From positions 6,591,416 through 6,655,415 of the forward strand of contig NC_037596.1 of the NCBI RefSeq assembly GCF_003073045.1: a stretch of DNA of 64,000 nucleotides. Reading direction: 5' to 3'. The notes beneath the pieces were generated by a model that was not told the origin of the DNA, did no database searches, and saw only the letters and a list, made by a program, of their open reading frames with translations. The stretch comes from Pomacea canaliculata (Eukaryota; Mollusca; Gastropoda; Architaenioglossa; Ampullariidae). A program made the position numbers and the translations under genes. Shown piece after piece: positions 623 through 63,281 of the stretch. Within the stretch, counting starts at the first letter, position 1. The number at the start of each line of letters is the position of its first letter.

Positions 623-734
623 ATGTGTGAATCACCTCCCTTTACCGGAAGCCGTGCTCGCATCGTGTTGAGGAAGATGACCTCGTTATTTAATCAGATT
701 GCATATTTAGCAGTCTTATTAATGCTGTACACAG
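623..734 (+). CDS. gene A exon 1, signal peptide
   Basis: 37 codons plus one base, then the donor GTTAGC. The second half is strongly hydrophobic (IAYLAVLLMLYT), as in a secretory signal. The phase-1 end matches the phase-1 start of the ectodomain exon. Confidence 0.75.
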
Positions 735-3700
735 GTTAGCCGACTATAAATAAGAGTTGTATGACTTGGTTTATCCTAATTATCGTTGTATTGGCAGTTT
801 GAAACTGCAGTGACGGTCGCCTTGTTGCCATGATATGAACCCTCGCATGTGTTGTTTGAATGGCGGAGACAGACAAAATAACATTTAAGATCCTTTTCTA
901 AAGAATATCACCTTTTTTATCTGAATACTTCACATAGCATGGACGCAGTTTTAATACTTTGCTGCTCAACATATATTGTTAATATGTAATTATCTATTTA
1001 ATATTGCTTCCTTTCTGGCTTATTAGACCCCGGAGTTGCTGTCAAGTATTTCTGGTTGATTCTTGTTTTTCGTGTGTCGTTTGTATGGTCAGTAAATCAA
1101 CAGTTAGTTTAGCCTATTCCTCCTATCTCCCTGTAGCTCCTCATCATAATAGTTCACAGACAGGCAGGTATCATCCCGCCTTTGCAGTTCTTGTGGTAAA
1201 GGTTTCTAGTCCAGAATAATAATGGTCTTTATCGGTTGTATTCACACGGAAAATGTAGTTTTCCCAAACAGAGCGACATATATAAATAAATTTGAGCACT
1301 CTTTATAAAATTGAAAAAGTAGTTTATTTTTGTAAAGTATCCTGTAGATATAATAGATACACATTTTTATTATATCATGAGATGTAGCATGTAAAGAAGT
1401 AATTATAAAGATGGTTCTCCTTTGATTATATTTATTCTTGCAGGTTTATAGCAATTGCAAATGAGTCTGCATCACTGTATTTACTAAAGGTTACCAGCCC
1501 TTCATTTTTACTGTTTGAGTTAGACGCTCGAGAATAACATCCTTCCAAAGACTAATTTATTCTTGTTTAGTATTTATTATTTACAAGCTGAACAGTCGAC
1601 TCCTTATGTCATCAATGTTTATGTATCTTATGCAAGTTATTTATAATCAGCATTGAGGTTACAGGATATGATTAGTTATTCAGTTTGTCTTCCTGCCACT
1701 AATGTTATTTTATCAGAAGAATATGAAGCACAGAATACATTCTCAAAGTAAACAATTTGTTTGTCACAGTCTCGGCTACTGGCGCGGACCATTGCTTTCA
1801 GCATGACCAGGAAGACGTGATGGTCCATGTGACGTGCACCTACCACAGAAACGTCACCAGTAACGCACTCTGTCCGATGGTCCGCCAGCATCCTCTATTC
1901 GACATGGATGTCAAGTCTGGAACAGTATCCGTTGTTTGTTTCTCACGCCCAACGGAATTTGGTATTTGCACGTGTGAAGAGTCACATTCTGAGAATTCCA
2001 CATGCACACTGTTGTTGAATACAACTCATCTGGAAAGAAGACGAATTGTGTGGAAGGCCTGCAATCAACAAGACATATATCTTAGTGTCGAAAATAATAA
2101 TAACACCAGCAATCTTTCTCGTGAGTATATACAAAGTTAATGTTTAAGAAAGTGTTAAAAAGTTTCTCGGAAAATATTCCCCCCTAACCGAAAGAAAAGC
2201 CTAATCATTATTCTTTATTTATGAGATAGACCATCGCTAGAGCGCGCTGCAATAAAAGCAGTAAATACAGTGCAGGTAGACACTGGGAAAACAATTCACA
2301 GTTAAAGCATTTGGACTTCTCAGTCTCGAAGAATGGCCTTATTCTTTCCCCAGGTACCTACTGTCTTGATAAGCTTGTAAGAACAAATAAACAAACAAGT
2401 AACCCACTAACTAACCAAAACAACCTAATTAAAGAAACAACTATCCCCCATTCAAACAAAAACACAATAGATTAATTTCCCAGAGCGTAAAAAGTACGAA
2501 AACCTTTTCACAACATTAGCAAGAGTTTTCCTGCATAAATCTTGTGCACGTTTACTGTATACTATTCAACAGTTTTTAAACTGAGAAACTGTAAATGAAA
2601 GGATATTTCTTCCCTCATCACCATCATCATCATCATCATCATCATCATCGTCGTCGTCGTCGTCGTCGTCATCATCATTATCATCATCATCATTATCATC
2701 GTCATCAGCAGCAGTATTTACATTCCTTTTATACTGCTTGGTTGTTTGGGGCATTGGACAACATTACTTCCAACTTGTGTCAGCTTTCTCGGTTGTCTTC
2801 CCTTCTTTGGGATGCACCAGGTCAGCCAGTGTAGTCCTAGGTGTTGTCTGTCCATTTCATTTTTAGTTTTACTTTACTACTGTGTCTGTGCAGTGCTTCA
2901 TGCCAATCTTGATGATCTTGAGAGGTGCTCATACTTGCTTGCCTATTGTCTCAAGGGACGGAGGGTCTTCATAGGGACAAATTGTCTCCCTTTTGATCTT
3001 TCGTGATTTCTTTTTGGTAGTTAAATCTTTGATGGAGATACAATGTGAGGGAGAGTATGTAGCCTTGCTAATCAACAAATGTTGCTCTGTACAACTTAAC
3101 AATAATGATGTGAAGAAGACTTTAGCGGTTGTCTTATCATGTGTGTGTTCTATGTTAGGGTGCCACTGGTGTTGCACTTCTTTGTGCTTGTCCATCTGCA
3201 TCCCATGCTCTCTCAATGGTCTCCTCAAAGCTTATAAATTATGCTTAATGGTTGTCATTATGTTGGTGTTCTGGGGAGTTCTCGTGAATTATTCCGTTAT
3301 ATATCCGTTCGGTTCTGCTGTAGCCTGCACAAAAGCCTGCTTGTTCGTTTTCATTTTTTTTTTTTAGATTGTGGTTCTGTTTATTGTCTCTAGTATGTCT
3401 GTAATCAGCTTCGCGTTTATCAAAGGATGTTCTCGGTTCACTTCTATATACTCCCAAGTTGCTTGAAATTCAAACACACAAAGCACACGGGTGTATTCAT
3501 TCAAGAATGGTTAACTTTGTCTTGTTATCTGTTTTCTGTCAATTCACAAATGTAGACTTACATGCCAGAGTCGATTTCTTCTTTAAATAAGCAACACATT
3601 CTTGTAAAAATTGTAGTCCTGCATTTTTGTTTAGAGACAAAAATGAAAGCACGACACATACAAGAGCTCCTCTTCAACATTCTTCACGATTGTTGATTCT

Positions 3701-5360
3701 AATACTAGAAAAACGATCACTGAAACAGTATACTCTGAGAAGTCTGAAGTGTTAGCTGTTTCTAAGAGTTTCTTTAACAAATACGCATGATACCAGCTCA
3801 TTATTATAAATTTATGTAGCAATATTTAAAAGACCTATTCTCTAGTTTCTCCTTAGGTAATACTGAGTAGAACGATTCAACAATAAAATTCAATGAATTT
3901 TCAATAGCTTAACTCATTCTTGCTCGAGATGGTTTATTCAAAAGGGTTAGCAGACAGCTATGTATCACACAAATATTGCTTTTAGCAGGAAAAAGGAATG
4001 GTATTGTGTGGTGTTGCCTTAAAATTTCATCAAGCGACTAAAATGTCTTTCTAAGAAAACACAAGTTTGATTAGTCAAAAGTGTACTACTGTCTGTCTGT
4101 GAGCTACAAATGTGTCTGCAGCTTCTGTGCGTTTTAAATGTGGATTTATGTGTGCTTACAAAGTTCTGTTTTGTTTCCAGCAATCACCGTTGATGAGAGT
4201 TTTAATTATCCAGTAGCAGTTGGTGTAGCTACAGGTTTTGTTACTATAGTAACCACAATACTTCTCGCAGTATTTCTGTGGATGAGACGAAAACGGTTGT
4301 GAGTATATCAGTGTTTTTCATTCTCTTTTTAGTTGTTAGTCTACGTATTTTACATATTTGCTGATTTCCACTACTATTCAATGATACCTTCAGTGTATTT
4401 ACATTCCTACAAATTTCACCTGTAAAGGAGCCTTATGTAGAAGCAAAGGTGGTAAGTATAGACAGGGTTTCATTAACCTAACATTATGCTTTATTTATTA
4501 AAATATATAAGTACATGGGATATCTATCCGTAAATATATCCTATATCATAAGATAATAATATGGATAAGACTATTTATATGCCTCATACCTATGTTTCAA
4601 AAGAATACATGCCGTACAGTCCTTTTCTTTAAAGAAAAATAATATATTTTCGATAAGGTTATTTGTACATTAAAAGCTTGGGGTTTGTCAATTTGTGAAG
4701 AATTTTTTATATTCTTTTAGCTGTAAATACCACATTTGGCCTTTCTTCTGCCAATAATAAGAAAAATCAGTAGCACGGGCTTGGATATTTTTCAGGTCTT
4801 TTGGTAATTTTTTACCGTTTATTTTTTTTCCTTGATTGATTTTTATATCTGTGTCTCATTGTTTTCTTTTTCTGAAACCTTTTATTTTTACTGCCACATC
4901 TGCGCCATCTTGTTGTAACTAAAATTCTAGATCGGTGCATCAGTCTTGTCTAGTTGAGAGAATGATTTTTTCTGCAATTTCTCCAGAAAGTTTTGATGTT
5001 TCGTTGTCATAGCAAGCGTTGTGCGAGTAAATACTATGATCTTACATTGAATGTGATGCTCTAACAATATTTCTGCTGGAGAAATTATGCTTCTTTTCTG
5101 TAACATGAAACATGAAAAATTAACACATTTTTGTTCGCTGGTGAGTTAGTTGGTTGGCTGGCTGGCTGCTCGGTTGGTTCTATGATTGTGGGTTTATTTA
5201 AAAAAGATGGTCATGAGAATTTTCTTGTTTGCAGAAGGACAAATCAAATGGGCTCACAAGAGGAACAGGACAAGCTGAACGCAACGACAATCAATCAGTC
5301 AGGCGCCCTTTGACCAGCCTCTGTGGTTGGGAGGATCACGGTGATAGACGCGGCACCTGA
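623..5360 (+). CDS. gene A: small single-pass receptor with a cysteine-rich ectodomain
   Basis: Five exons join in frame: 623-734 (signal peptide, phase 1 out), 1770-2120 (ectodomain, phase 1-1), 4181-4298 (membrane helix, phase 1-2), 4394-4451 (phase 2-0) and 5235-5360 (ends in TGA). All introns are GT-AG and the product is 254 aa. The first ATG is at 623. A second in-frame ATG at 677 begins a more typical signal peptide (MTSLFNQIAYLAVLLM) and may be the true start. The ectodomain has eight cysteines in the order C-x13-C-x11-C, then a C-x-C pair and further cysteines, with several N-x-S/T sites. The helix (PVAVGVATGFVTIVTTILLA) is followed by the basic stop-transfer RRKR and a tail of about 60 residues with no clear ITIM. 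I recognise no named family. Gene D shares the cysteine spacing, so A and D are probably the same receptor type. Extra exons in the 1-kb intron 1 cannot be excluded. Confidence 0.8.
1770..2120 (+). CDS. gene A exon 2, cysteine-rich ectodomain
   Basis: A 351-nt phase 1-1 exon between acceptor TTTGTCACAG and donor GTGAGTATA. It encodes 117 residues with eight cysteines, including the pair in GICTCEES, and N-glycosylation sites such as NVT, NST and NTT. One phase-symmetric exon for one domain is the usual build of shuffled extracellular modules. Confidence 0.85.
2615..2710. repeat. CAT/CGT trinucleotide microsatellite
   Basis: A run of CAT units shifting into CGT units and back, inside intron 2 of gene A. 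Long His/Arg or Asp frames across it are artefacts of the repeat. Confidence 0.95.
4181..4298 (+). CDS. gene A exon 3, membrane helix
   Basis: A phase 1-2 exon of 118 nt. It has a short juxtamembrane stretch (TVDESFNYP), about 24 hydrophobic residues without charge, then WMRRKRL. The acceptor is TTGTTTCCAG and the donor GTGAGTAT. Confidence 0.85.
4394..4451 (+). CDS. gene A exon 4, cytoplasmic
   Basis: A 58-nt exon between acceptor ATACCTTCAG and donor GTAAGTATA, phase 2-0. It encodes a short stretch ending in KEPYVEAKV. It was chosen because it keeps the frame open into the last exon; a nearer acceptor would run into a stop. Confidence 0.6.
5235..5360 (+). CDS. gene A exon 5, C-terminus and stop
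   Basis: It follows acceptor CTTGTTTGCAG in phase 0 and encodes 41 residues ending in GDRRGT, then TGA. The composition is polar and basic, with no tyrosine motif. An AATAAA at about 6053 could be the polyadenylation signal of a long 3' UTR. Confidence 0.65.
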   Translation, partial: KDKSNGLTRGTGQAERNDNQSVRRPLTSLCGWEDHGDRRGT

Positions 5361-7770: not shown

Positions 7771-7924
7771 ACACACCCTTTTTGATATATTACATAAGCA
7801 AGTGAATTGCAACAAAGAAGCTCATTCAATTCGTCTAACCTGAAACTCTAGTTTCGATTTTGCTGTCAAAGAATTTCCTAATTAGGTGACATTTAAATTA
7901 AGAGAATATATGGTTCTTCAAGAT

Positions 7925-8480: not shown

Positions 8481-8820
8481 TGCTTATTCACCAAGACATT
8501 CCTGAATATCTATACTACAATACAAACCCATCATACGTACACAAGCACAAGCAAGTTCATTTAGTATAAAAGAACTCGGTTAAAACTCCTGTCCACTGAT
8601 TCCTGAATGAAGAATATATATATATTAAATAGCAGTATTTTTGGCAGGACGGCGATCTCACTTGCTGAACAAAAGAATAATTTTACAAACTGTACACAGG
8701 AAGGTTTCATAAATATCTCTGAGTTATCCTTCTTTTTTAAAAACTTCAGTGTCCCCTTCGAAGGAACCCAATAACACAAACATTGATATTCTTGAGCCTA
8801 AATCTCGTACAAACATGGTC

Positions 8821-9119
8821 TCAATGGTCTGAGTCTTCATCAGAGGCAGACATCTTGGTTTGAATCATGCGAAGTGTGCAGTAGTCTGCTTCCTCCTTCC
8901 TCGGATGTAGAGGTCGCCTCACCTGACCGCCGACATCAAAGAAAGGTGTGACGTAAATCAAACCGTCATCGTTCTCCCATCTACCGTTATCAACCGTCTG
9001 GGAACTTGAGGAAGGGCTGGGTAAGTTCTTTGTCCCTGCGGCATTAATTGGTGCTGTGGCAAGGTGCTCCTTCTTCTTGAATTTAATATTAGTAGTGTTA
9101 GTGTAGACGGGGTCTTCTT
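8821..9119 (-). CDS. gene B exon 14, C-terminal tail
   Basis: It encodes EEDPVYTNTTN, GRWENDDGLIYVTPFF and EEADYCTLRMI, and ends DEDSDH then TGA. The middle block is nearly identical to the end of gene C. The acceptor at 9119 keeps phase 1; the alternative at 9132 would need an unseen exon before it. Confidence 0.8.
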
Positions 9120-12100
9120 CTGTCCTTTGATCCTGTACACAAATAAAGTTGTATAGGTATTTTATAAAATTTACTTTTACAGCTTGCCATAATCGTGATA
9201 AATATTTTGTTAAATGGGTACGATTTTTACAAAATGGGCGTTTAAACGCACAAAACACAAAGCTATTATGAAAGATCAGACACATCAAAAAGAGGAAAGC
9301 GTTTACTGAAACCAGAGCTTTTTATTTCTTAAATTTTTCTGTTACATTAAAGGCATTCCTTTACGCTGGTTTGTTCTAGAATATGTAAGTATGAATACGA
9401 ACACTACAGCATATATTGCAATATATTCACATTTACATATTGAAATTAGGACCACTGTCTTTACTAGGATAAATTTAACTCTGTGAACTTCATTTAGGCA
9501 TTAAAAGGGTAAAATAAAAGGGTGCAGAAGGAGAGCAATTTCGGTTTCAAGTGTACTTAGGAAGTGTTCAAATGAGCTGGTGAGTATCAGTATAATGATC
9601 AGTCTGTAACACTAGTGCGATTCAACTATGTCCTGGGTACCGCAATACGTGTGCCCATCATGGTTGAGAGGACTCTTGCAATACATGTAAGAGATATATA
9701 TATACAGTATGCATACTGCTCATACATAATCTACCTTTGTGTAAAGATAATAATTATATATTTATGACTGCCCACAAATGACGATGCATTTTCAAGATTC
9801 AAGACTTTGTTTAAAGTTTAAACTTTAACAAAATGAAGAATTGAAGAATGTTGTGACTCATTGCTGTTTTCTCAATGTCATCGTATCTCATTTTTCTTAG
9901 TGTGTACGTGGTGGGGTGGTGCCCAGTGAGGGTAACCGTTTATGGGGAAAGGAATAGTATAACAACGATCAGATAAGAATTGTTCCACTTTTTCGATTCT
10001 AAGGAATTAAACCTTGCTTTTGTGGTATCAGCAGCTCGACACATTAAACACGGATTGATACTTTGTGGACTGTCGACAAGCTTCTTCTTCAAGAGCTTCT
10101 TTCCAGAGTTAAAGAGATCGACGCTGGTAAGTCATGAGCACCAATAGAACATTACTTCCCTTCCGAAAAAGCTTCTTAGGAAACTCTACCCCTCTCCTCA
10201 TCCCTCTATCCTCAGGAAGAGGCTGGGACAGTGAGTGGTGTGTCGTGAGGGAAGACAGAGGAAGGATTCCGCCTCGTCAGACAAGTTCGTGCGATCACAA
10301 ACTAGAGATTACTGAACTGTAAAAGCTTTACAGACTGACCTAATGAAGTTCAGTCAACTTTGAAGAGCATGTGTTACTGGTGTAATATCAGTGGAAGGAA
10401 AGTATTACAGATGGGAAATGAGCTTTTCGGTGTATCTCGTCGTCCATTGGCCCGTGCTCGTGAAAATGAGTGCGTGCGACATGTACACATCGGTAAATAA
10501 AAAAATATCAAATACACACATACACAACGGACACAAATGTGCACAATATTAAAACTGACCTTCTCGTAATAATCTGCACACAGACAAATAATGATAGCCA
10601 TTAGGTTTATGATGCAATCACTTTTAGCGTGTGCGCACACACACACACACAAACACACATGTGCTCGTTAAGATACAGATTCTTTCTCACTTTTGTCTTC
10701 TACACAAGTGGAAAGTTTCTCACATGAACTGTAACTGCGATAAATGCAAATACATAGTGAAAATAAAGTCTCTGTATTATGTATATCTTTCTGGATCCAT
10801 AGGTATACAGACTCCTCTGTGTTAAACATATGAACTGCTTTAATCAGGAAACTTGTTTCATTAGCTTCGTAAGTTTATCATTAGTCAGTGTTTACCGTTC
10901 ATTGTTTGCCGGCCTCGAGGTGTGTCTGTTGTTTGGCCTTGTCCACGACTTGATTTAGTTTTATCTTTGACTTTATCCACAACTGCATATACTACTTCCA
11001 TGTCTCTTGGATATTCAGACTCTACAACAACTGAAACAGAACGGTAAAGAATACATCAGACCAAGAGATTGAGATGGAAAATATTCGTCATTTAATATCA
11101 ATTTGAATGTGAACTTTTATATATAAGTTCCTATCTATCAATCAGTTAGAAAAGTCCTTACCTAAAGTTTGCTTCCAAATGAAAAGCGAAAGTGCCACTG
11201 ACCGGACTACCAGCATTAGCAATGTCCTGAGGCCGTAGAAGAAACATTGTTCATGATGCTTAAATCCAGAGAAAACTGATTTACCTTTTGAATGTGGCAG
11301 TTTCTTCCCTGAAACTGTAAACAGCTCGAGCAGACGTGTTTGCACATGAGGAAATCGCAAATGGGTGTTGGACTCTTGACGAAGACTATCTTGAGCTCTT
11401 GATGAGGGCTTAGGAGAGCGAGGTGTGGCAAGACAGCCATTCACATCCGTACTAAGTGTAAACCCTCTTAATTAAAACACTTGGTTTTGAAAGCTCAGCT
11501 CACCTTGAGTGTCTTTGTTTATGTTCCTTTTCCTGCTGCCCTGTTCATGGGTTACATGCACAGGACGAGTGTTGGTCTTTCTTTTCTTGTCCACTACGGC
11601 GTACAATGGCGTCTCACAGGGCTTTGGTTGCGAAGTGCCTGGAGTTGTCATACGACTTTGGGGTCGCATCGTAAGTGGTACTGGAATTACATTTCTTCAG
11701 CTAATTAGGTTGCAGATCTTAAAAACTTAATATAGGAGGCATTGGGAAGTGTTCATTATAGTTATATGTTGTTAGCGCTAAAGCCAAATTCAGATTTAGT
11801 CTCTCTCAATCTGTCATGTTTCTGGGTCCATATTATATCACTGACTTGATGTAAAGCACTAATAATTCATTGGTTCCTTGGTGCTGGTTGGTGTTTCTGT
11901 GCAGTTTAAGCAAAGAGAGTGAGATGATATAAACTTTTTATCAGAAAAAAAGTATCATAGAATAACGAAGGTATGTACCACTGTCGCATGGAATCTCATA
12001 AATGATTTCAGCTGTTAGTCTTGGTGACTCGTGATCTGCACAAGAAACAAACATAAGAAAGACATGAGGAAAAAATAACGATAGTACAAATAAATAGTGT

Positions 12101-29961: not shown

Positions 29962-30062
29962 TCATTTCCCATGGAGATCGCGTATTCCATTTCCTTCAAG
30001 CTTTAAAAGCTTTAAATGGTACTTCCTCGGTACAATGGCCATTTGAGGAACCTTTGACATTC
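29962..30062 (-). CDS. gene D tail exon and stop
   Basis: Acceptor TCTGTTTATAG, phase 1 in. It encodes MSKVPQMAIVPRKYHLKLLK and 12 more residues before TGA at 29962. Confidence 0.65.
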
Positions 30063-33095: not shown

Positions 33096-33404
33096 TTTTT
33101 TTTTTTTTAGGCCCTTCGCCCCTCCTGGGGCATAGGCCATCGACGACAGTCTTAACTGTTGTCAATGCTTTGGTAGCAAGGATTTGTTTTTACGGGGTGG
33201 GGGTGCTGGCCCCACGCCCAACCCTCCTCCTTTTTCAGCCAGGCTTGGGACCGTCCTTGGCGGAGGGCAGCCAGCCCTGTAAACAAATGCCACGTGCAGA
33301 GAAAGAACAGTATGCCCGAGACGAGAAATGAACTCAGGGCAGCCAACCTTCACTGTATTGGTGACAGGCGCTAACAGCGCTAACCGTTGCGCCACCAGGC
33401 TGCT
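33096..33404 (-). mobile_element. tRNA-derived SINE, about 309 bp, with target duplication
   Basis: On the minus strand it begins CAGCCTGGTGGCGCAACGG then TTAGCGC (box A region). About 45 nt later comes CCCTGAGTTCATTTCTCG (a decayed box B). A GC-rich body follows and it ends in poly(A), seen as T's on the plus strand. A 13-bp duplication ATATGCTATTTCT flanks it at 33083-33095 and 33405-33417. The body appears as minus-strand open frames that are not genes. Confidence 0.85.
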
Positions 33405-33417
33405 ATATGCTATTTCT

Positions 33418-36005: not shown

Positions 36006-36025
36006 CCTCAAACAAAGGTCTAGAC

Positions 36026-37322: not shown

Positions 37323-37330
37323 GTCTAGAC

Positions 37331-38460: not shown

Positions 38461-38464
38461 TTTC

Positions 38465-45753: not shown

Positions 45754-45787
<34 letters not shown>
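45688..45787. repeat. interrupted GT microsatellite
   Basis: Two GT runs separated by a T-rich spacer, followed by GAATGTCT repeats. Confidence 0.9.
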
Positions 45788-50900: not shown

Positions 50901-51172
50901 TTAATTCCCCTTGAGAGAACTTGTTTGAATTGTGGAGTACTCTGTCTCCTCTTGGCTCGGAGGTGGACGACGCTTTACGCCAGCAGCGACTTTGAAGAAT
51001 GGAGTCACATAGATAAGACCATCATCGTTAACCCATCTCCCGTCATCCTCTGAATGGGGGTTTGAAGCACAAGCAGATGCCTCCCGCCTCGCAGAAACAT
51101 CCTGTCGTGCTGGTAGCTGCTGCATGACCAGATGGTCATAGTCATCGCTATCATCTTCATCATCCACGAAAC
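50901..51172 (-). CDS. gene C exon 14, C-terminal tail with ITSM
   Basis: It starts FVDDEDDSDDYDHLV, carries GRWVNDDGLIYVTPFF and EETEYSTIQTS, and ends LKGN then TAA. T-E-Y-S-T-I fits the ITSM consensus. Confidence 0.9.
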
Positions 51173-53981
51173 CTGCCAAATAAATAATAGACAAGATTGA
51201 TATTGGAACTTTAAAGTCTTATTGACAGAGAAATAAAAAGATATGAAAAGCATAACTAAAATTAGGTATTTTCTTTTATTGAAATAGTTGCTTGGTTTGG
51301 GAGTATCTGAAGAGATATCGAAAGAAAAGTCACAGCAAAACGATTTGTAAATAAACTTCAAGACGCTGAAACTCAGAAGAGTATTTGAAATAGAATGAAT
51401 TTTGAGCAAAGGTGGATGCCAATGAATAAGGCACATCCCATGGTGGCCGAATGAGCCAGCCTGAAACCTTTCCTTCATCTTCCTTATGGCCGCCCACACC
51501 GCCTGGGAGGTGGCACGGGAGGATAATAACAACACAAACCTTGTCAAATATTTCGTACAAAAATCTTTAAATTATGTGTCAGGTATTGTTTCGTTTAAAT
51601 CATCTAAATCCGTTAGATCTAAGCAGGGTTTCCACATCAGACAACATATTTACCTTTTTCTGTGTCTGGACGGGGTTTGTGTTTCTTGTTATTGTCACGT
51701 CTAGCTGGAGTTTTACCTCTGATCGTATCCAAAACAACGTACTCGGAGTCTGTGTCTGTGTCTGTGCCTCGCCAGACTCCCGAGCTTGAAGGTTTTGAAC
51801 CTGAGAGAGAACACACACACCAAAAAAGCCCCAAAATAAAAATGGATAGAACTGATAGATTGAGCAGTCTTGTAAGCATTCGTGATTAATTGGACATATT
51901 TACAATCAATTCAAATTTCTAAAATAACATTAGGGATCTTGCACACATGACATTTTCTGTCAAATTTCAGATGAATGACAAAGTAACATCGAGAGAATGT
52001 CACCGTTAGTCAACACGAGAGTCGCTAAACTGGACATCTAATATTTACAACAAAAAGTTAGTCTAAGTCATACTGGGCAGTAATTGTGACAATCATTAAA
52101 GTGGACACATCGCTGTCCATACATAGTCCAGCAATTTAAAAAAAATTCTCGTTTGTGTGACGATCGTTATCATTGTCACCTTTTAGGTCGTCTTTTCTTG
52201 TTTTTTCCCTATCGTCTGCTCTCTCAGCGATGTGAGCAGGTTGAGTGTTCACTTTCTTTCTTGTCTTGTCCACTACAGCGTAGACAGGTGTCTGACAGCG
52301 CACTGGCTTTGATGTACCGACTCTGGTGTGTGTCCTCGGAGGTTGCATCGTTAGTGGAACTGAAATACAACTTCTCTTCGAGTAGTCTTAAAAATGAGAC
52401 ATTTGACCTGTGGTTTGCTCTATAGTGTTTTCAAAAAGAGGAACCACGTTCGTGTTATAAATACCATGTATAAGGGTTTTACTGTTTTGTTTCTGCTTTA
52501 TTGCTTAATCAACAATGAAACTAGGGATTAGATCAGTTTTTGGATGCCTTTAGCAAGCATAGTGATCAAAGAACTAAATCAAAAAAATTATTTTAGCTAA
52601 AGTACTTGCTTAAAGTAGAGTCAGTTATTTGAACAATACGACCAGATTCATCTGACAGATATATTCACACACTTGCTTGCCGACGCAAGCACACACACAC
52701 AGACATTACATTCTTTGAAATCAGCAAAGCAAAGTAGCAGCCCTATTGCTCATCAAAACAAAAAAGTTTTAAAACAGTGATTACCCCCGCAATCGGTCGG
52801 TGTTTTATTACACAGCATACTGCTAGATGCAACCAAGTTTGAGTACATTTGCCTCCAAGACAGGAAGGTTACCTCGGCGAGGTAGATGCTGCGCTACCCA
52901 GCATACGGACGTGTCGCAGCCCCGGAATAAATGCATCATTACCGGTTTCTGTTTAAAGAGTTTGGATGAACTCTCCTGTTCTTTTGGTCATGTTGTGTTC
53001 CCTGGCAAAGCTTGGAAAATGATGTGTTTTCTGTGCCTAATTTTGTTGGTTTTTCTTGCTGGTTGGATTAGTATGGTTTGATTTTTGTTTGAACTAAGTA
53101 TTAAATGATGTTATGGTAAAATGATTTTTTGTGCAATTATTTTTAATAATAAATTAAAGGAAAAATGTGAAATTTAATACCACATGAAATCTAACACTGT
53201 ATAACATCAGAGTGACAAGATATTGCTAGATATCTTGCTTTATAATCAACAATAACCAGTAGGTAGTACGCACCACTGTCCCATGGAATTTCATAGATGA
53301 TTTCTGGTGTCGGGCTCGGCTGGTCAGCTGAACGATCCAAAAACAACACATGATTAGCTGTGTTACGGGTGTTTTGTTAGTTGAATACTTTTCTTCACAT
53401 TTAAAAAGTTTTCTACATTTTTTTTTTCTTATGGAATCGTTTGCTTCGCTTAGTTTAAATCTTGCCGTTTTAACACATTTTCTTCCATGGTGACTGTGGG
53501 ATTAAGATGATTCACTCGTTAACGAACTGTCCTAAACAAAAGACATCTATCAGAGGACAGATATGTCGACCAAAGCTTTTACTCGCTTGTAATCAAACGG
53601 AAATAAAAAAAAATCTGCTATCATTTGTGATTTTCAAGTTTCCCGATCCGATTAAGATTAAGAGTATTCTACGTTTTTTCTACGTGGCTGTGAAAATGTA
53701 CGAGTGTGATTCACAAAATATGAATGCGAGTTATATTACTTTACGCACACTAAGTACAACACGAAAACATGTGTTCTTGTGTTTGTTGTGAAGTACACAA
53801 AATAAAAGTCATTAAATTAATATGAACGCTGACATCTTACTTTCTTCATCTCTTCTGCTCCTGTAAGGAAGTCGTGAAGCAGCTGCCAACCTGAAATGAG
53901 GATGGTTGATGATGATAATAATGAATGATGATGGTGGATGATGAAGAATAATGGATGGTCAATATTGGATCATCCTCCTCC

Positions 53982-54016
<35 letters not shown>

Positions 54017-57000
54017 GAATGAACAAAACGTGAACTTGCTATGCTTTGTATGCATTTGTACGAAAGACGCTGGAACTAGGTGAAATAAATCGAGCATTCA
54101 ATCCGTGTAGACTTTGGGGAACAAGAGAATCAGTCATAAATAAGCCATAGATTAATCATTCAACATTTTCAATTAATTAATTAATGTTTTTCATATTAAG
54201 ACAGGCAAGTAAATCGTTTTTCTTTTGATTTAAAGGGATAGAATTAGTAAAATCTTGGAACTTACACTGGAAATACCGAAGACGATTCTGCAACATAGGA
54301 AACATATATATATATGCTAAGTGCACTGCTGTGCTCACAATTAACAGATCATCGCTTGCTCCATTATAACCTACGCAGGTCTTATCAAACAGAATCATGT
54401 ATCTACTTATCAGAAATCTTTCTTTTTGACCAAGCCAATACGGATTTAGTTACTCATTTCAAAGATGGGTCAACTAGGGGGAAATGCTCTTTGTCAAAAG
54501 AGTTTCGAAGCCTTCTGCTTTAACCTCTCGACAGTCCGGCTTTCTTGAGATAATCGTATTGATGCAATATCTAGCTACATGTATCTTTTCTTAACTCTTC
54601 AAGAAAGGCTAAAAACATACCTTTGCTAGTCTTCTTTTTCCAGATTATGACGGTGAGTACAACAACCGTTACGACGAAAACAAAAACTGCAGCAACTCCA
54701 GATAAAATGGCGATATGATGTTGTGCTGTTTCGTCCTCGTTGATATTTCCTGTAGAAAATTTGAGCAATTTTGGAAAAATTTAGGTCTGCTCTTTTGGTA
54801 ACTTATGTTTTATGTGTAATTTTATGCTACTTAAAACAGTATCAGTGCAATTCTGCTTCACTCACAGAACTAATAAATTTCGAAAAAGAAGTATATTTCC
54901 TCATCGTGAGTGAAAAATATAGAAACTAATAGACAGTCCAACAGACTGATAGACAAATTTATCTACTTACAAAACAATCAGTAAAAACTGTTTATTGGAT
55001 CTGAAGGGACAGGAAGCGAAAGTGAGGAGATAGAACTAATGTACTCGGCCACTTTATGAACTGATTGTAAAATACTTGCACCCATGAAAGATTAATAAAA
55101 CTTCAACCTACTGTAAATGATCTCAACAGTGAAATTTTCATCTCCATGTTTGTTAATGACCTGCACCTTGAAGAAACCAGAACTTGATAGGATGTTGAAG
55201 ACTGTGAGAGTACATTTCACCAAGTATGTTCTGTCTGTGTAAGATGTACAGGTAATGTTCACTGCCGAATCTTCCTTTAGTTCACAGTAGCCGCTAGAAC
55301 TATTGGGCATGGCTCCTAAAAACCACACGTTGCTCTGATGGGGCACTGGGTTAGAGATTATGTCAAAGGCTATGGTCTCTGTTTGATTTCTAAACATGAT
55401 TTTTCCAATGTGTCTCGTTGAAATAATCCGAGGTTTACCTGACAAAATGCAGGAAGAAAATAAAATTTTATTTTAAAAAAGTTCGATGTAGTATTGATAA
55501 GAAAACCAGGTGTCCGCAGACTGTGCGCACCAATATAAAGTTGTTTACATCCTGTGTTATATAAAAGATATTTAAACTCTTTGAACAATTAAAGACACAT
55601 CTATGATTTTTTCAGAAATTATTCAATAATGAATTTAAAGAAATTTCTGTAAAGGAAAAATGTCGATAACTAAAGAAAAATTAATAAACCTTGTGCGTAG
55701 TAAAATATGATTTACTGGATTATTGACTGAAATGTAGAGAATTATTGATTGGAGATTAAGCTGTTTACATGTTTATGCACTTGCTTAGTTTTTCCATAAA
55801 CACTTCTCAGAGGATTTTTGGCGACAACGAATACAGACACAAATAAGAAGTGAATGGAGAGGAAAAGAACTGGCTTAAGCGATGACTTCTTATAATTTAC
55901 TAGTAGTATTGTTAACTTACATAGAACATCAAGGTTGAAAGAGGTTGTTGCTGCTGACTGAGGTGAAAATACATTGCACGCAGAGCACGTGTATGTTGCT
56001 GTGTCTTCACAGCGAGCGATGAAAGTGTAGTTTGCAGGAGACGAGGCTCTGACGAGAACGGTGTGGTTGTCGTTGTTAGAGATGGAGATGTTGGGTGTGG
56101 GTCGGCCGTCTGATTGACACCTTAGTTGTACTCGGTGATTCTCCATAACTGTTGCATTTCCATCACTATCGCTAAAAGATAGCTTTGGTGTTTTGGGGGC
56201 ATCTGTAAATACGTGTTGAAAACTACCTCAAAATGCCAAAAAGTTTACTTCTGATACATTTTAAGACGCTGTCATCGTCCACAAATACAGAGACAGACAA
56301 ATGCACTCTGATACATGGAGATATAGAGACCGTCATAAGGATAGACACACAGGCATACAACCATTCTAGTCACAGATCCTAAGCTTTCAGTGGCTGAGAA
56401 CGGTTATCACGAGGTACAGTACTAGTAAGACAAGCAGCAGGAGTGGCAAACTTTCCACAGAAATACACAGGGTGGCCACTCACAACTTTAGTATACGCGA
56501 TGGTCAGGTATTTTAAACCTACACACTATTCTCTGTAGAACACCGTGGCAAATAAGAAAATAATGTTATTTTTATAACGGGGAAACATTTTAATGATTGT
56601 AATTCATTAACCGTATTAAATACGTGAATAAAACAGCAACATCTCCCTGAGACAGCTGATTGCTCGTGAGGAGGAACAAGTTGCGTCTTTACAGATATTC
56701 GCAATATCGGCTCGTACATACCACCCGTTTTCGACAATATCTTTGAAAGTACCTTTCCTTTGTGCGTAACATCCCCAATATTCCATATCAAGTTATCCTA
56801 TAATCTTCTATCTTTTTATGTTTTCATCCGCCACATTCGAGTTACTCTTTAAATAAAGAACTTTTCTTCAAATGTTGCAGATAGTTTCAAATCCTGACTC
56901 GCACCTCGTTAATGTTATTATTGCTTGTAATACTACTTGTTGATACTTGTCTATGACACGTGGAGGTTTTGGCATCCAGTGATGCTCTTATGTTCTGAAC

Positions 57001-60000
57001 TTTAACTACATTTTAAAGCAGCAGTGTACATAATTGAAAGTTTAAAACTAAAAACAAAAAAATTGGTTCTAAACACCATTTATATTTCATTGTTTATTTT
57101 TATCACTTTTATATTTTTTTAAATGCTGCAGGACTCTTCCGTTGAAACAAGAAACCAAACGGTCCACATTAAAATCTCCCTACAGCTGTTGTTTTCTTTT
57201 CAGTTAAGACATGCTATTCAGTGTTCACGTTGATGTAAATTGTCCACGCACACTTTCTTTTTTAATTAAGCATGACCTACTCTAAAACATAAAACAAAAC
57301 ATTCAAACAATTCTTCACTTACATCCCACATTAGCCGTGTAGTTCTCTCCCAAAATCTCCTTGGTTCCCCACAAGACATCACATCTGAACCAGGTCTTAC
57401 TGTGGTCTGACTGAGTCAGGAGCTGAGTATGGCTCAGTGCTTGTGGTGTGGAAACTTCTTTGACTAACGTCTCCTTGTTAGTCTGATTACCTCTGGTCCA
57501 TCGCAGGTACCCTGCAGGATGTCCCAGACTAGTGATTCTACAGGTACATGTGATGTTAGTGTTTTCTAGTACGTAGGGCTGTGGTTCACAGGATGTGGTT
57601 GGTGACTTGGCTGGTTCTAGAAAAACAAAAATCACTTTCTTTTCAAAATGTGTATATAAAGTTAACTTTTATTAGTCCAGTTAAGTATTCACAGCAGCAG
57701 TATTACACTATAGTCATCTGAAAAGAAAAGGCATTCGAAGTAACAAAATGCCTTTCTCAAAAGTTACGGTTGCAAAACAATTGTTTACTTACAATAGTCT
57801 ATAAATTGCAGATAAATAAATCACTAATCTGAACGTATAGGAGGCCGCCACACTTTGTTGCTGATTGATGGCATCGAGACAATCTGGCGCCGTAATTGCT
57901 TTCAGTTTCCTAAGTTCTATCATCTAAATCAGCGGTTCTCAACCTGTGGGGCGCGACCCCCTGGGGGGTCGCGACGTGCCTACAAGGGGGTCGCGAAGGT
58001 GGTCATTTTTTCAAAAAGTTTCTTATACTGGTATTAGTGAAATTAGTTTACATTGTGTAACCGAGTGGTGCGGGGGCTCAAACTCCAAATCTCTTCTCCC
58101 TATTCAAGTACACTGTCTCGGCAATGCAGTGACTTCTCACTTCCAAAACTCAAAACACAATCCCCCTCTCAACAATTAAGCCTCCAATCTCCCTCCTCTC
58201 ACCTTTTGCCCTTTCTCTTCCCCAATCTCTCATCGCTGACTCCCCTCTCCCTCTCCAGTCACACCTCTCTTTTTTTTTTTAAACATCTAAAAGGCACGCA
58301 TTCAGGAAACGTCCATCATTCACACCCTTTCATTCGCACGTGCTCAGTCCTAGTACTCTATAGGTCCCTGACAGAAGGCCATGACCAGACAATGCGCTGC
58401 GACTGGATAAAGACAGCAGTTTTAATCCAAATTTTGGATGCAAGTACACGTGTTTGTCCTGAAGAAGATAGCCATGGATAAATTTGTGCTGCGAAAAGGA
58501 ACTGATTGCGGTGGTTTTTTGAAAAGAAAAAGTGAAGAAACGAGCGATGTGCAAGTTTTGGTTGCTGGAGCCGATGAAAAACCAGAAAGGCCTGCTACGA
58601 AAGTAAGAAAGTATGACAATGAATACTTGAAAACTGGTTTTACAAACATTATTGTTGATGGTAAAGAACGGCCACAGTGTGTTGTTTGCCTCGCAATATT
58701 AGCTCCAGAGAGTATGAAGCCAAACAAACTACGGCGCCATTTGGAAACTCGGCATGCGGAGTTAGCTTGCAAACCTCTCGAATTTTTTGAACGAAAATTG
58801 CAAGAATACAAAAGAGACAAAAAAACATTTGTCTCACATACATCAATTCATAAGAAAGCTTTGATGGCTTCGTATCAAGTTTCCTATCGCATTGCTCAAA
58901 ACAAAAAAGCACATACGATCGGAGAGTCATTAATACTGCCTGCAGCAATGGACATTGTACGGACCATGATGGGAGAAGATGCTTCCTATCGCATTGCTCA
59001 AAACAAAAAAGCACATACGATCTTAGAGTCATTAATACTGCCTGCAGCAATGGACATTGTACGGACCATGATAGGAGAAGATGCTGCTACGCAGCTGCAA
59101 GCCATTCCTTTGTCAAATGACACAGTTCGCCGAAGAATAACTGAGATATCTGAAGACGTGTCTGACCAGTTGATCAGTCGTATAAAAAGCCAAAATTTTG
59201 CTTTGCAGTTAGATGAAGCTACTGACACTGCAGGTGACTCACATTTGATTGCTTACATTCGTTACGTGTGGGAAAATAATCTTCTGGAAGACTTTTTATT
59301 TTGCAAGAAAATTGAACGCAGAGCAACAGCCCAAGATTTTTTTGGGATTGTCGATGACTTCCTTAAGGACGAAGGCATTTCCTGGAGTTCCTGCGTCGGC
59401 TTGTGCACAGATGGCGCCCCTGCAATGGCTGGAAAGAAACAAGGGTTGCAATCTCTTATTAAAAAGGTTGCTCCAGACGTAGTTTGGACTCACTGCATGA
59501 TCCACCGTGAAGTTCTAGCTTCCAAAGATTTGAGTGTTGAGTTGAACACAGTGCTAACAGATGTCATAAAAATGGTGAACTTTGTAAAGAACAGTTCTGC
59601 CAGGTCTCGCCTGTTTGCTCTGATATGTCAGGACATGGGAGCCGACTATGACACCTTGCTCTATTACTGCGAATCAAGGTGGTTGTCGCGTGGAAAAGCT
59701 CTCGCAAGAGTCTTTGAATTGCGGGAAGAATTGTGGGTGTTTCTGAAGGAGAACTCTTTCAACAAGGCTAACCTGCTTAAGAACGACCGATGGCTGCTGC
59801 TAATGGCATATTTATCGGACATTTTTGAGAAGCTGAACGTTGTGAATACTTCTATGCAAGGGAAGGACACCACCATATTACAAACAACTGACAAGATGAA
59901 TGCTTTCGTCCGAAACATTTCGTTGTGGACGCAGAAGATACTCCAAGAAAATATTTTTGATATGTTTCCGTGCTTGTGTAAGTGCAAGGCTGACGTTAAC

Positions 60001-63000
60001 TTGAATCTTGATCAGGTGAAGAATGTAATTATTGCCCATCTAAACGGACTGCAAGAAAGGTTTCAGCATTACTTCGCTGAAATTGATGTGACTAAATACG
60101 ATTGGATTCGTAATCCATTTCTGGCTGATCCTAGCACAAGCGGGTTGTCCACGCAAGAAGAAGAGCAGCTCATCGACCTTTCGAGTGACCAATCCCTGAA
60201 AATGGTCTTCCAAACAACACCAGTGACAACATTCTGGATTAGCATCAACGGTGAATATCCTCTCCTTTCTGAGAAAGCAATGAAAGTTCTGCTGCCATTT
60301 TCAACTTCATATATGTGTGAGCAAGGATTTTCAGCATTGGCAGCACTGAAGTCGAAATACAGAAATCGTGTGGACGCAGAGGCTGAGCTGCGAATAGCAG
60401 TGGGTACGAACAGCGCACACAGGTTCGCTTCTCTATGCAACAGCAAGCAGGCTCAACCTTCTCATTAATCAAAGTGAGTGTCCAATAAAATAATATTTAT
60501 TAGCTTTAGTAAAATTTCATTAACAGTTATACTTCTTGCAGATACGAACTTTGTTCTTCAGTTGTTGAATTGCATTGATTTCCTCGACGCGGCGTTCGAG
60601 GTTAGCTAACGCTCCCCCCCCCCCCCGCTCTTCCACCGACCTAGCTGGCTAAGGGGGTCGCGGACGTACCGGTGTTCGTCAGGGGGGTCGCCACATGTAA
60701 AAGGTTGAGAACCGCTGATCTAAATGATTTCATGCTTTGTAAATGCTTGGATCCGGATATCTTGCCGTAAAATCATTGAGAGACGCAGAAAGAAAGAAAG
60801 AGAATGAAAAGATTAATTAAAAGCTATGGAGAAATCCATTATAATTGTCATATTTCCCAGCTATGCCGTTGCCCTCTCCGGAGAGGTGAGAGATTTAAAA
60901 GATAATGTCATCGTAAAATTAAAGGGATTTTAAATAGAAGAAAGTTTCCTAACATTTCTGTGTGCATTAAAGTGTGTGTGTGTTTGCGTGTATCTATATG
61001 TACACGAGAGCGAGAGTGAGCAGGTACGAGAATCCCCAAATGAAAACAGATGTTGACCGAAGATAACGTACGCTTTAAAAAAAAAAAAAACAACAACAAC
61101 TAGAAAATAGAAAACAATTATATAGTTACCAGCTGTGAACAGCATGTCACTGGTTCCAAAATGACGTCCGCCTGGTGAGACAGACACAAAAAATTCATAG
61201 GTTCCTTCCTCTGGTGGGAGGGTTGTGCTGAACACACAGGAGCCTGAGACCTTCACTTCACTCTTAGTGAACTTCTCGCTGGTTGGGGATGTCACCATTG
61301 AGACACTTTCCAAGGTTTCATTCTTTAACTGAAAGAAAACATCACAACTGCGAAATGACTACATCTAGTGCAAATTAGCTACCGTTGCTAAATGAGTGAA
61401 TCTGTTTTGGATCGAAAATATAATTTACCTTATCTTTCAAGAGGATCAGCTGACATGTATAGTTTTTCCGCGAAGAATATACAGACTTGATGAAACAGGA
61501 CACACTGACTGACCACAAGGAATTTACTGCTGTGCACGACACGTCTTGTGGTGGATCTGTTGAGTGAAAAGTAACGAAGATTCACCAAGATTACGAATAA
61601 TGTTCAAACGAAAGGTGGAAGGAAAGACAGAAAAGATACATAAAATTATGCAATAAAGTGGAGAAATAAAAGTGCTGATTTCAAAGACATATTTTCATGT
61701 AATGGAAAGTAATTTCGTTATATGATTCTAGATTACCATAAATGCGTGAAAATCCGGAAATAAACATTGTTCCCCAGTTCCAGTCTGGTATCAGGATGGG
61801 AAGCATTACTATAAACTTAAGCTAATTATAATTAATTTATAATATATTACTAATCAAAATAACTTGATATTACTAATTATAATTACCAGCTCTCCAGGAA
61901 AGAGCGCTTAGCAATGTCAGTGTGTTACGAAATTCTTATGTGATTAAGCGAAGCTTCATCTGAAATAGGCCTTCGTTCCTGTTGCTGAAAAACCTCCCCA
62001 CTATTTATCCGACAAAAAAATTGGATACCTAATTATTTAGGAAGCGTTTGTGGGAGGAGAGGGCTGAGCTCTGTCGTCCACATGTCGTGCGATATACACG
62101 AAAAGCAACTTAACAGTTTTACTGTCCTTTAGGCCACTAGGCTATGCAAAACTTTACTTTTTATATATTATATTGCACTGTATATATTCACCCAATTAAG
62201 CATTTGAAATAAATTTGAGAATCATCGAATGCCATGACAGTAATATATATATATGATAATGTGTTAAATGCTGCTGTTCTTTACGCAAATTATGAATGGA
62301 GAAAACAAAGACTACTTACAGACATAGTTGAGACCACAGCTGGCTGACTGGTTGTCTTCACCTGTAAGACTACACTCCAGACTGCCGTTCAGAAGCTTGA
62401 TATTATCGTATACCCTTGCGTTGTTCACAGGCTTGATGGTCATACTTGATCTGTGAGCATCAATAATCCTCCCAACGAAAAGTTCGTTAAATGTTTCCAA
62501 CTGTTCGAGTTCCTTGTCATATTGTGCTAAAATGATTTGTTCGCGTGTATGTAGTTTCCATTGAGCTGCCTTCTCACTTGTGCAAATGAAGTGAGTTTCT
62601 TGGTCAGACAGTATTTCCTGAACTCCGTCAGCACCACACGGCGAGAGACTGATACCTGTAAAATATACAAAATTGACATTGATATAATCTATTTTGAGAT
62701 ACATAAAATGTAGATATGAAGGCACAATTAGGGTTTTTCTCCGGGTACACGAACCTCTGTATGTGTGTGTCACAGAATAAGTAAGAGAGAAGACTGAAGG
62801 CTTCACAGTCTTTTGTTTCTCATACAGATTAGATATTTATGTTAGATATTCGAATACTTGGTTACAACAGTTGAGAATACTAGTTGCGGAAAGTAACAGT
62901 GTTAGTGAGACAACTCCACCAACACGTATATGGAAGGTCTGTTATGTCTGAGCATGCTTGAATACTACCAAGTTATATTAAAACAAGTTTTAAGCCAGTG

Positions 63001-63281
63001 CATTATAGTTAAATTATAGTCATATGCAATGTACGTTTCTTAGGTCTCGTTTTCAAAGATGCTATTAATGCCTGCTTACTGCTGTACATACAGCCTGATT
63101 TTAACAGCTGCACAATATTTCTCATAAACCGAGTTTGGTTCAAAAAAAAAAAAATTAAAGATCTTGACACTCATTAGTGAAGTTTTAATTTTTTGTCTTC
63201 ACCTCTGACGAGTGGCGGACAAAGAAGAAGCAGGAGAACGCCCGTTTTCCATAAGGTCCTCGCGAATATGCATTTCCACAT
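50901..63281 (-). CDS. gene C: five-Ig-unit receptor with ITIM/ITSM-type tail
   Basis: Fourteen exons on the minus strand: 63281-63203, 62655-62320, 61556-61429, 61328-61130, 57616-57323, 56202-55921, 55438-55112, 54749-54621, 54287-54266, 53890-53841, 53327-53274, 52359-52180, 51800-51654, 51172-50901. All are GT-AG and in phase, giving 832 aa. Residues 1-26 are the signal peptide; Ig-like units lie at about 27-138, 139-247, 248-345, 346-439 and 440-548; the helix is in 549-591 and the tail in 592-832. Tail tyrosines sit in IIYEIP, PVYAVV, SEYVVL (fits ITIM S-x-Y-x-x-L), DYDHLV, LIYVTP and TEYSTI (fits ITSM T-x-Y-x-x-I). This is the paralogue of gene B with the same exon phases throughout. 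A complete hAT transposon sits in intron 4, in the opposite direction. Ligand and cell type are unknown. Confidence 0.92.
51654..51800 (-). CDS. gene C exon 13, tail with ITIM
   Basis: A 147-nt phase 1-1 exon. The repeated TDTDTD leads into DSEYVVLDTIRGKT; S-E-Y-V-V-L fits the ITIM consensus. Confidence 0.9.
52180..52359 (-). CDS. gene C exon 12, tail with YAVV motif
   Basis: A 180-nt phase 1-1 exon starting VPLTMQPPR and containing QTPVYAVVDKTRKK. Confidence 0.9.
53274..53327 (-). CDS. gene C exon 11, tail with YxxP motif
   Basis: A 54-nt phase 1-1 exon ending TPEIIYEIPWDS, with the same IIYEIP core as gene B. Confidence 0.85.
53841..53890 (-). CDS. gene C exon 10, tail
   Basis: A 50-nt phase 2-1 exon encoding LAAASRLPYRSRRDEE between CTCATTTCAG and GTAAGATG. 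Confidence 0.8.
53971..54016. repeat. CAT trinucleotide microsatellite
   Basis: A CAT run in intron 9 of gene C; the Asp-rich frame over it is an artefact. Confidence 0.95.
54266..54287 (-). CDS. gene C exon 9, 22-nt microexon
   Basis: Acceptor CTATGTTGCAG, donor GTAAGTTCC, phase 1-2, encoding SSSVFP. Same size and phase as gene B exon 9. Confidence 0.78.
54621..54749 (-). CDS. gene C exon 8, membrane helix
   Basis: A 129-nt phase 1-1 exon: NINEDETAQHH linker, helix SGVAAVFVFVVTVVVLTVII and stop-transfer WKKKTSK. No charge in the helix. Confidence 0.93.
55112..55438 (-). CDS. gene C exon 7, Ig-like unit 5
   Basis: A 327-nt phase 1-1 exon: CKPRIISTRHIG, NVWFLG, NITCTSY, VKCTLTVF and the closing strand GFFKVQVINKHGDENFTVEI. 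Confidence 0.92.
55921..56202 (-). CDS. gene C exon 6, Ig-like unit 4 (I/C2 type)
   Basis: A 282-nt phase 1-1 exon: VQLRCQSDGRPTPN and CEDTATYTCSACN, a textbook D-x-A-x-Y-x-C F strand. Confidence 0.95.
57323..57616 (-). CDS. gene C exon 5, Ig-like unit 3
   Basis: A 294-nt phase 1-1 exon: TTSCEPQPYVLEN, ITCTCRITSLG, PAGYLRWTRG and WFRCDVLW. Confidence 0.92.
58438..60468 (+). CDS. hAT transposase (BED finger, ZBED/Buster-Charlie type), 676 codons
   Basis: It cuts and moves the element by the hAT DDE mechanism. A BED zinc finger lies at C81-x2-C84-x16-H101-x4-H106. The probable catalytic residues are D259 (LQLDEATD), D325 (CTDGAPAM) and E628 (CEQGFSALAALKSKYRNR), with the hAT C-H motif in CMIHRE between them. 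The C-terminal block is the dimerisation region. The downstream ATG at 58474 (MDKFVLRKG) fits the usual transposase start better than the one at 58438. A perfect-frame tandem duplication of 34 codons (58882-58983 and 58984-59085, SYRIAQNKKAHTI...) lies just before the catalytic core; relatives I remember have one copy. The frame is whole, but whether the enzyme tolerates the duplication is unknown. Confidence 0.95.
   Translation: MQVHVFVLKKIAMDKFVLRKGTDCGGFLKRKSEETSDVQVLVAGADEKPERPATKVRKYDNEYLKTGFTNIIVDGKERPQCVVCLAILAPESMKPNKLRRHLETRHAELACKPLEFFERKLQEYKRDKKTFVSHTSIHKKALMASYQVSYRIAQNKKAHTIGESLILPAAMDIVRTMMGEDASYRIAQNKKAHTILESLILPAAMDIVRTMIGEDAATQLQAIPLSNDTVRRRITEISEDVSDQLISRIKSQNFALQLDEATDTAGDSHLIAYIRYVWENNLLEDFLFCKKIERRATAQDFFGIVDDFLKDEGISWSSCVGLCTDGAPAMAGKKQGLQSLIKKVAPDVVWTHCMIHREVLASKDLSVELNTVLTDVIKMVNFVKNSSARSRLFALICQDMGADYDTLLYYCESRWLSRGKALARVFELREELWVFLKENSFNKANLLKNDRWLLLMAYLSDIFEKLNVVNTSMQGKDTTILQTTDKMNAFVRNISLWTQKILQENIFDMFPCLCKCKADVNLNLDQVKNVIIAHLNGLQERFQHYFAEIDVTKYDWIRNPFLADPSTSGLSTQEEEQLIDLSSDQSLKMVFQTTPVTTFWISINGEYPLLSEKAMKVLLPFSTSYMCEQGFSALAALKSKYRNRVDAEAELRIAVGTNSAHRFASLCNSKQAQPSH
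58882..59085 (+). repeat. 102-bp in-frame tandem duplication in the transposase
   Basis: Two abutting 102-bp units starting TCCTATCGCATTGC, differing at three positions (GG to TT and one G to A). Confidence 0.95.
61130..61328 (-). CDS. gene C exon 4, second half of Ig-like unit 2
   Basis: A 199-nt phase 0-1 exon: SMVTSPTSEKFTKSEVK, SGSCVF and EGTYEFFVSVSPGG. Confidence 0.9.
61429..61556 (-). CDS. gene C exon 3, first half of Ig-like unit 2
   Basis: A 128-nt phase 1-0 exon: PPQDVSCTAVNSLW, VSCFIKS and YTCQLILL. Same length as gene B exon 3. Confidence 0.88.
62320..62655 (-). CDS. gene C exon 2, Ig-like unit 1
   Basis: A 336-nt phase 1-1 exon: ISLSPCGADG, HFICTSEKAAQWKLH, GSLECSLTG and CGLNYVC. 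Confidence 0.88.
63203..63281 (-). CDS. gene C exon 1, signal peptide
   Basis: ATG at 63281; the core GVLLLLLCPPLV is a strong signal sequence. The exon ends AGAG before GTGAAG, as in gene B. Confidence 0.88.

Follow-up and report, generated by a model that had tools for sequence, protein, structure and literature searches.

The window analyzed here, a stretch of 64,000 nucleotides, was located by a search of its own assembly (440,159,624 bases in 24 contigs) at C7:6591416-6655415, on a contig (C7) of 30.9 Mb that accounts for 7% of the assembly. Four receptor genes, A to D, were modeled in this interval, each with a single transmembrane (TM) segment, and further genes may have been missed. 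All four had been proposed in the initial annotation and were recovered at the same coordinates with consistent splice sites and phases. The orientation it gave, three genes of four in the same direction, was also correct, with B, C, and D on the minus strand and A on the plus strand.

Genes A and D encode short receptors in which a single cysteine-rich exon is followed by a TM exon and a tail of well under 50 residues that lacks tyrosine. Gene A (623 to 5313, plus strand) is complete, with a signal exon (623 to 734), the cysteine-rich ectodomain (1770 to 2120), the TM exon (4181 to 4298), and a tail exon (5235 to 5313), and is supported by splice sites, phases, codon usage, and own-genome matches. 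Gene D (29996 to 32634, minus strand) consists of the cysteine-rich ectodomain (32245 to 32634), the TM exon (30730 to 30879), and a short tail (30306 to 30318 and about 29996 to 30062), based on splice sites and own-genome matches; a signal-exon scan returned no convincing candidate. Codon usage in the ectodomain exon of A scored above all 2,000 intron samples, and that of D fell just below the 99th percentile of 2,000 such samples. Among 52 other open frames of at least 80 codons, one scored above A and five above D. Support for the D model therefore comes mainly from its genomic relatives.

Genes B and C share a longer plan of a signal exon, five domain units with unit 2 split across two exons, a TM exon, and five tail exons. 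Gene B (50901 to 63281, minus strand, 13 exons) is supported by splice sites, paralogy with C, and Pfam immunoglobulin (Ig) matches. It begins with the signal exon (63203 to 63281), continues through the domain units (62320 to 62655, 61429 to 61556 with 61130 to 61328, 57323 to 57616, 55921 to 56202, and 55112 to 55438) and the TM exon (54621 to 54749), and ends in the tail exons (53841 to 53882, 53274 to 53327, 52180 to 52359, 51654 to 51800, and 50901 to 51172). Gene C (minus strand) spans 8821 to 19868 with a probable signal exon, or 18947 to 8821 without it, and is supported by splice sites, paralogy with B, and the signal-exon scan. The probable signal exon (19784 to 19868) was the better of two candidates within 11 kb and has a donor hexamer identical to that of B. 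The domain units of C (18582 to 18947, 17906 to 18033 with 16753 to 16951, 16015 to 16314, 15100 to 15372, and 14511 to 14834) are followed by the TM exon (13952 to 14071) and the tail exons (12618 to 12650, 11979 to 12035, 11504 to 11680, 10896 to 11030, and 8821 to 9119). Internal junctions in both genes are AG/GT and phase 1, the one exception being the phase-0 intron that splits unit 2 in each, and both tails are 237 residues long.

Mobile elements were also present in the window. A hAT-type transposon with a long open frame (57923 to 60722; dimerization domain by Pfam) lies in the intron between units 2 and 3 of B, and a 103-base tandem duplication occurs within this frame (58881 to 59085; copies 97% identical). 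A shorter hAT copy between D and B (36019 to 37327) is 90 to 95% identical over two blocks. A transposon fragment had no NCBIfam match. By eye, a tract upstream of D (33165 to 33419) resembles a short interspersed element. The window contained no tRNA and no Rfam match at gathering score.

The sequence evidence identifies B and C as paralogues, based on similarity limited to exons, shared splice phases, and the dN/dS of the ectodomain. At the DNA level, similarity was confined to exons and their immediate edges. Protein identity was 39 to 60% per ectodomain exon, and weaker in the TM exon (9 of 39 residues) and fourth tail exon (10 of 38). Pooled dN was below dS in both the ectodomain (0.40 versus 1.00) and the tail (0.53 versus 1.18), indicating that both regions are under protein-level selection.

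Both proteins belong to the immunoglobulin superfamily through units 3 and 4. In B, Ig_3 scored 31.1 bits (cutoff, 30), with Ig_2, I-set, and C2-set_2 also above cutoff, and in C, C2-set_2 scored 22.5 bits (cutoff, 21). The best PDB sequence match of the long receptor was ROBO2 (E = 4.9e-5), spanning units 4 and 5. The description of B and C as complete, splice-consistent receptors with five Ig units thus holds for the gene models and for two or three of the units, but units 1 and 2 matched no Ig family. For unit 1, Pfam found no Ig match in any of seven members, the predicted structure was poor (pLDDT 50.7), and Foldseek of that model returned mixed beta folds with no match at E ≤ 0.001. Pfam searches of B and C at E ≤ 1 returned no sushi family. 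Relatives of unit 3 were absent from the prokaryote and viral contigs scanned.

By Pfam and PDB sequence matching, the ectodomains of A and D appear to lie outside the Ig superfamily. None of 12 D-type members had a Pfam Ig match (one matched an unrelated family at E = 0.036), nor did the ectodomain of A, and the best PDB match of the short domain was not Ig (E = 0.24). Structure prediction for the D ectodomain was too poor to use (pLDDT 34.5). Judged by these searches, the short receptors carry an undescribed family of extracellular cysteine-rich domains with 47 genomic matches.

The relatedness of A to D is weakly indicated. Their similarity was matched in 3 of 300 shuffles, and in 1 of 300 when the cysteine positions were kept; a profile gave an iE of 1.6e-3, and A matched two D-type loci at E values of about 0.0026. 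Among 66 pairs, other cross-family comparisons did as well or better, such as A against B unit 5 (2 of 300 shuffles) and C unit 2 against B unit 5 (none of 300). Homology of the A/D domain to unit 2 of the long receptors was considered and rejected, as D against unit 2 of C gave a z score of 3.5 but an inconsistent register. Profile-profile comparison of two-row domain alignments was uninformative and failed even for units 3 and 4, both of which are Ig by Pfam.

Of special interest in the long receptors are the tyrosines of the cytoplasmic tail. The last tail exon contains LIYVTP and TEYSTI in B, and LIYVTP and ADYCTL in C, with the two tyrosines 24 residues apart in each. All seven tail tyrosines of B align with tyrosines of C, which has eight, within tails identical at 84 of 214 positions; the stretches EIIYEIP and DDGLIYVTPFF are the same in both. 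Motifs were scored as strict ITIM ([SIVL]xYxx[ILV]), strict ITSM (TxYxx[VI]), and relaxed ITSM (TxYxx[LIV]). Each tail has one strict ITIM (SEYVVL in B and VVYAVV in C), a count reached by 18% and 23% of shuffles, respectively. The ITSM is present once in B (TEYSTI) and absent from C (ADYCTL), and the two relaxed ITIM/ITSM sites of B were reached by 3% of shuffles. No ITAM pattern or spacing was found in either tail, and the TM segments of A to D have no charged residue of the sort that pairs with ITAM adaptors.

Support for the tail motif comes from the wider family rather than from B or C singly. Tails were aligned for B, C, and 15 of the other genomic tail matches (the match at 30.9 Mb was left out). 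In this 17-row alignment, three columns were invariant among those with letters in at least 14 rows, namely both tyrosines and a leucine at position -2 from the first of them. In 14 of 17 tails, the second tyrosine lies within TxYxx[LIV], compared to a mean of 0.67 and a maximum of 4 in 1,000 shuffles. Three tails lacked the site: C, one that has histidine at +3, and one cut short by a stop. The strict ITSM was found in only 7 of 17 tails, which counts against the signaling interpretation favored below, and a strict ITIM was found in 6 of 17 last tail exons. Gene by gene, the tail motifs are weaker than the "ITIM/ITSM" label of the initial annotation suggests, with one strict ITIM each and no ITSM in C, but the TxYxx[LIV] site is a property of most family tails. 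The order and spacing of these tyrosines recall vertebrate ITIM-ITSM receptors, a resemblance of possible mechanism rather than of membership.

To estimate family size, the assembly was searched with the D ectodomain (E ≤ 0.1), B unit 3 (E ≤ 0.01), and the B last tail exon (E ≤ 0.1); counts include the query itself and may be lower bounds. The D ectodomain had at least 47 matches, all on C7 and free of internal stops, with 13 at 6.62 to 6.84 Mb, 24 at 9.66 to 10.52 Mb, and 10 at 27.0 to 28.3 Mb. Unit 3 of B had at least 55, none with a stop (52 on C7, 3 on C1, and 36 within the first two intervals), and at least 39 long-type exons on C7 had E ≤ 2e-10. The last tail exon had at least 18 matches, all on C7 (17 within the first two intervals, one with a stop), and the A ectodomain had at least 8, all on C7 (7 in the two intervals, one with a stop), of which 2 were D-type loci. 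Both families are concentrated in the same two parts of C7, 6.59 to 6.92 Mb and 9.66 to 10.52 Mb. The family expansion that the initial annotation named as one sign of an immune receptor locus is present within this genome, at 47 short-type and 39 long-type exons (E ≤ 2e-10) on one contig, and the cluster of long tyrosine-tailed receptors and short receptors without tail tyrosine is much larger than the window. V-set matches were also frequent on C7, accounting for 13 of 28 listed (150 of 262 candidates scored), at 8.93 to 9.52, 15.8, 20.0 to 20.1, and 22.34 Mb.

Uncollapsed haplotypes in the assembly could account for part of this copy number, but we consider this very unlikely. The three unit 3 matches outside C7 (C1:31.71-31.73 Mb) have an order and scores similar to those of a three-locus block at C7:10.37-10.38 Mb, and may be either a segmental copy or a haplotype duplicate; tandem blocks 84 to 96% identical are also what uncollapsed alleles might produce. 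However, matches other than the query were 24 to 57% (D ectodomain) and 30 to 66% (B unit 3) identical to it, too divergent to be its alleles, and recent copies are arranged in tandem within a single contig.

Profile scans at E ≤ 0.01 covered 200 kb of flanking sequence on the right and 50 kb on the left. The left 50 kb contained no family member, and members continued rightward to window position 262.7 kb, close to the end of the flank at 264 kb, placing the window at the left edge of the first group. The right flank held long loci E, F, G, H, and I, unit 2 fragments, an A-like exon at 198.1 kb, and 13 short-type exons besides D, one of them split by a frame change. A short locus at 206.6 kb was found by profile and was absent from the genome search with the D ectodomain. 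Loci F, G, and H had units 1 to 3 only, with no convincing TM or tail, and gene E has lost the tyrosine from one tail exon, its last tail exon not being found. At about 224 to 239 kb (loci L029 to L031), a 5.2-kb block containing a short exon and a unit 2 fragment is duplicated at 91.5% identity, with one short copy frame-changed.

A second feature of the expansion was the order of the two families. Neighbor tests used the 37 of 47 short matches and 36 of 55 long matches inside the two groups, the others lying elsewhere. In the second group (24 short and 23 long loci), a short exon was the immediate 5' neighbor, on the same strand and within 20 kb, of 17 of 23 long loci. In 10,000 label shuffles, this number averaged 6.4 and never exceeded 15. 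On the 3' side, a short exon was the immediate neighbor of a long locus only three times, and 27 of 28 short/long adjacencies were same-strand. Several results count against a general pairing of this kind. The 5' test and its 20-kb limit were devised after the pattern was already visible, and the second group did not alternate significantly more than expected by chance (29 runs against a mean of 24.5; P = 0.11). In the first group, a short exon lay 5' of a long locus in 3 of 13 cases (D-C, S069-B, and S103-E), below the random mean of 4.4; same-strand adjacency was 5 of 8, and short and long loci were less intermixed than in random order (9 runs against a mean of 14.0; P = 0.03).

From the second group, two units were examined in sequence, and both had the order short exon, unit 1, unit 2, and unit 3, with a signal-like exon before unit 1 in one. 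The short-type exon 5' of a long receptor could instead belong to that receptor as an optional exon for an N-terminal domain, a possibility that would be compatible with an immune role and that we regard as unlikely, at roughly one chance in four. Its phases (1-1) would permit in-frame splicing onto unit 1, and no TM exon followed the short exon in either of the two units, nor between S103 and gene E, which also counts against separate short receptors. A TM exon was confidently found in only 4 of the 14 short loci scanned, a further point against them, but those four (A, D, S069, and S092) are supported as stand-alone receptors by TM exons of their own. Signal-like exons just 5' of unit 1 in B, C, E, H, I, and unit U1 likewise argue against splicing from upstream; at F and G the candidate exons have weaker donors, and unit U2 yielded none.

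Among the 18 short-family pairs with the lowest dS, dN/dS was 0.94 to 1.22 in four recent pairs and 0.35 to 0.58 in the other 14. Values near 1 are compatible with either diversification or relaxed constraint. They also bear on the prospect, improbable in our view, that these genes form an adhesion or recognition family used in neural wiring, sperm-egg interaction, or mating and not in immunity. In that case, the tail tyrosines would dock adaptors of the cytoskeleton, for instance Crk-type SH2 proteins, which bind YxxP. The ROBO2 match and the conservation of EIIYEIP and DDGLIYVTPFF between B and C fit such a role. A large single-contig expansion with recent duplicates near a dN/dS of 1 is not typical of conserved wiring receptors, however, and the last tyrosine lies in TxYxx[LIV] in most tails.

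We favor, with a probability of roughly 0.55, the reading that the window marks the left end of a receptor complex of chromosome scale, built from two co-expanded families that signal through phosphotyrosine and probably serve immunity or self-recognition. This is based on the gene models, the constraint on B and C, the single-contig matches, the intervals shared by both families, the 5' order in the second group, the invariant tyrosines, and the dN/dS of short-family pairs. The long family would consist of type I receptors that combine five Ig-like units with a tail whose last motifs are LxY and then TxYxx(L/I/V), 24 residues on in B and C. The short family would also be type I, with a single cysteine-rich domain of undescribed kind and a tail free of tyrosine. 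From these features we infer phosphorylation, SH2 recruitment, the sign of the signal, protein-level pairing, cell type, and immune role as follows. Ligand binding would lead a Src-type kinase to phosphorylate the paired tyrosines of the long receptor, which could then recruit SH2 proteins, either an SHP-type phosphatase or an outcome-switching SH2 adaptor, and so set an activation threshold. The short receptor might share the ligand of its long neighbor or recognize a linked one, serving that neighbor as partner or decoy, and the likeliest use would be hemocyte defense or self/non-self recognition.

The initial annotation knew of no described invertebrate locus with this make-up, a statement that proved too strong, since the Botryllus fester/FcoR pairs, the Hydractinia Alr complex, and the Biomphalaria GRC and PTC2 clusters are analogues when compared by description. 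A literature search, with most subscription papers outside its scope, found no description of this particular complex, an absence that is weak evidence. In the fuhc locus of Botryllus schlosseri, each FF receptor is encoded beside an FcoR in an expanded, clustered family; fester and uncle fester encode no known signaling domain, and FcoR has a V-type Ig domain, sushi, and two C2 Ig domains, with a tail that may bear an ITIM or hemITAM (PMC12065747). The snail families likewise form a clustered expansion, and may be similar in having a short receptor encoded beside a tyrosine-tailed Ig receptor. Pairing of this FF/FcoR type, scored as a short receptor without tail tyrosine beside a tyrosine-tailed Ig receptor, applied to 17 of 23 long loci in the second group and 3 of 13 in the first. 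Compared with that account, the snail differs in that its long receptors have five Ig-like units and no sushi, and its short receptors carry an undescribed cysteine-rich domain (PMC12065747).

Other invertebrate systems share single features. The Biomphalaria glabrata GRC and PTC2 are clusters of single-pass transmembrane genes with few recognizable domains, two paralogue groups covering most genes of the PTC2 region and four GRC genes encoding FN3 domains (PMC4361660, PMC7494358, PMC11426442). The window is likewise a gastropod concentration of single-pass TM genes (all four models); the FN3 domains set GRC apart by description, not by sequence, and the main text of PMC7494358 mentions ITIM nowhere and immunoglobulin once. 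CgIgIT2 of the Pacific oyster has five extracellular Ig domains, a TM segment, and an ITAM tail and is expressed mainly in hemolymph (PMC11999971). Genes B and C resemble it in five extracellular Ig-like units, TM segment, and tyrosine-based tail, but without an ITAM in either tail they do not belong to that type. Hydractinia Alr is also an invertebrate IgSF receptor complex, with 41 genes and ITAM/ITIM motifs on candidate genes, and differs in its V-set and I-set domains and its role in cnidarian allorecognition (PMC11999971, PMC12065747). CgSiglec-1 is a further oyster receptor among the described analogues.

If the favored reading is true, a mollusc would possess an inhibitory or switch-type paired receptor complex comparable in scale to the immune receptor clusters of vertebrates. 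The finding would also add an extracellular domain family not described before, represented by 47 genomic matches, and the long-standing problem of how snails tell parasites and self apart would become testable in an apple snail. A bolder proposal, which we offer tentatively and at less than even odds, is an independently evolved, megabase-scale paired-receptor complex in one caenogastropod. Its repeated head-to-tail cassettes, each joining a short receptor of new domain type to a long Ig receptor whose tail bears an ITIM-like site and an ITSM, would provide germline self/non-self or pathogen discrimination, comparable to the leukocyte receptor complex of vertebrates and the fuhc locus of Botryllus. 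The layout recalls vertebrate immune receptor clusters as well as the self-recognition loci of a few invertebrates. Vertebrate Siglec, CEACAM, and PD-1 receptors carry an ITIM and then an ITSM in the tail. In the snail tails, the two C-terminal tyrosines follow a similar order at roughly similar spacing, and the second sits in a site of the TxYxx(V/I) kind; this likeness most likely reflects convergent use of the same tail arrangement.
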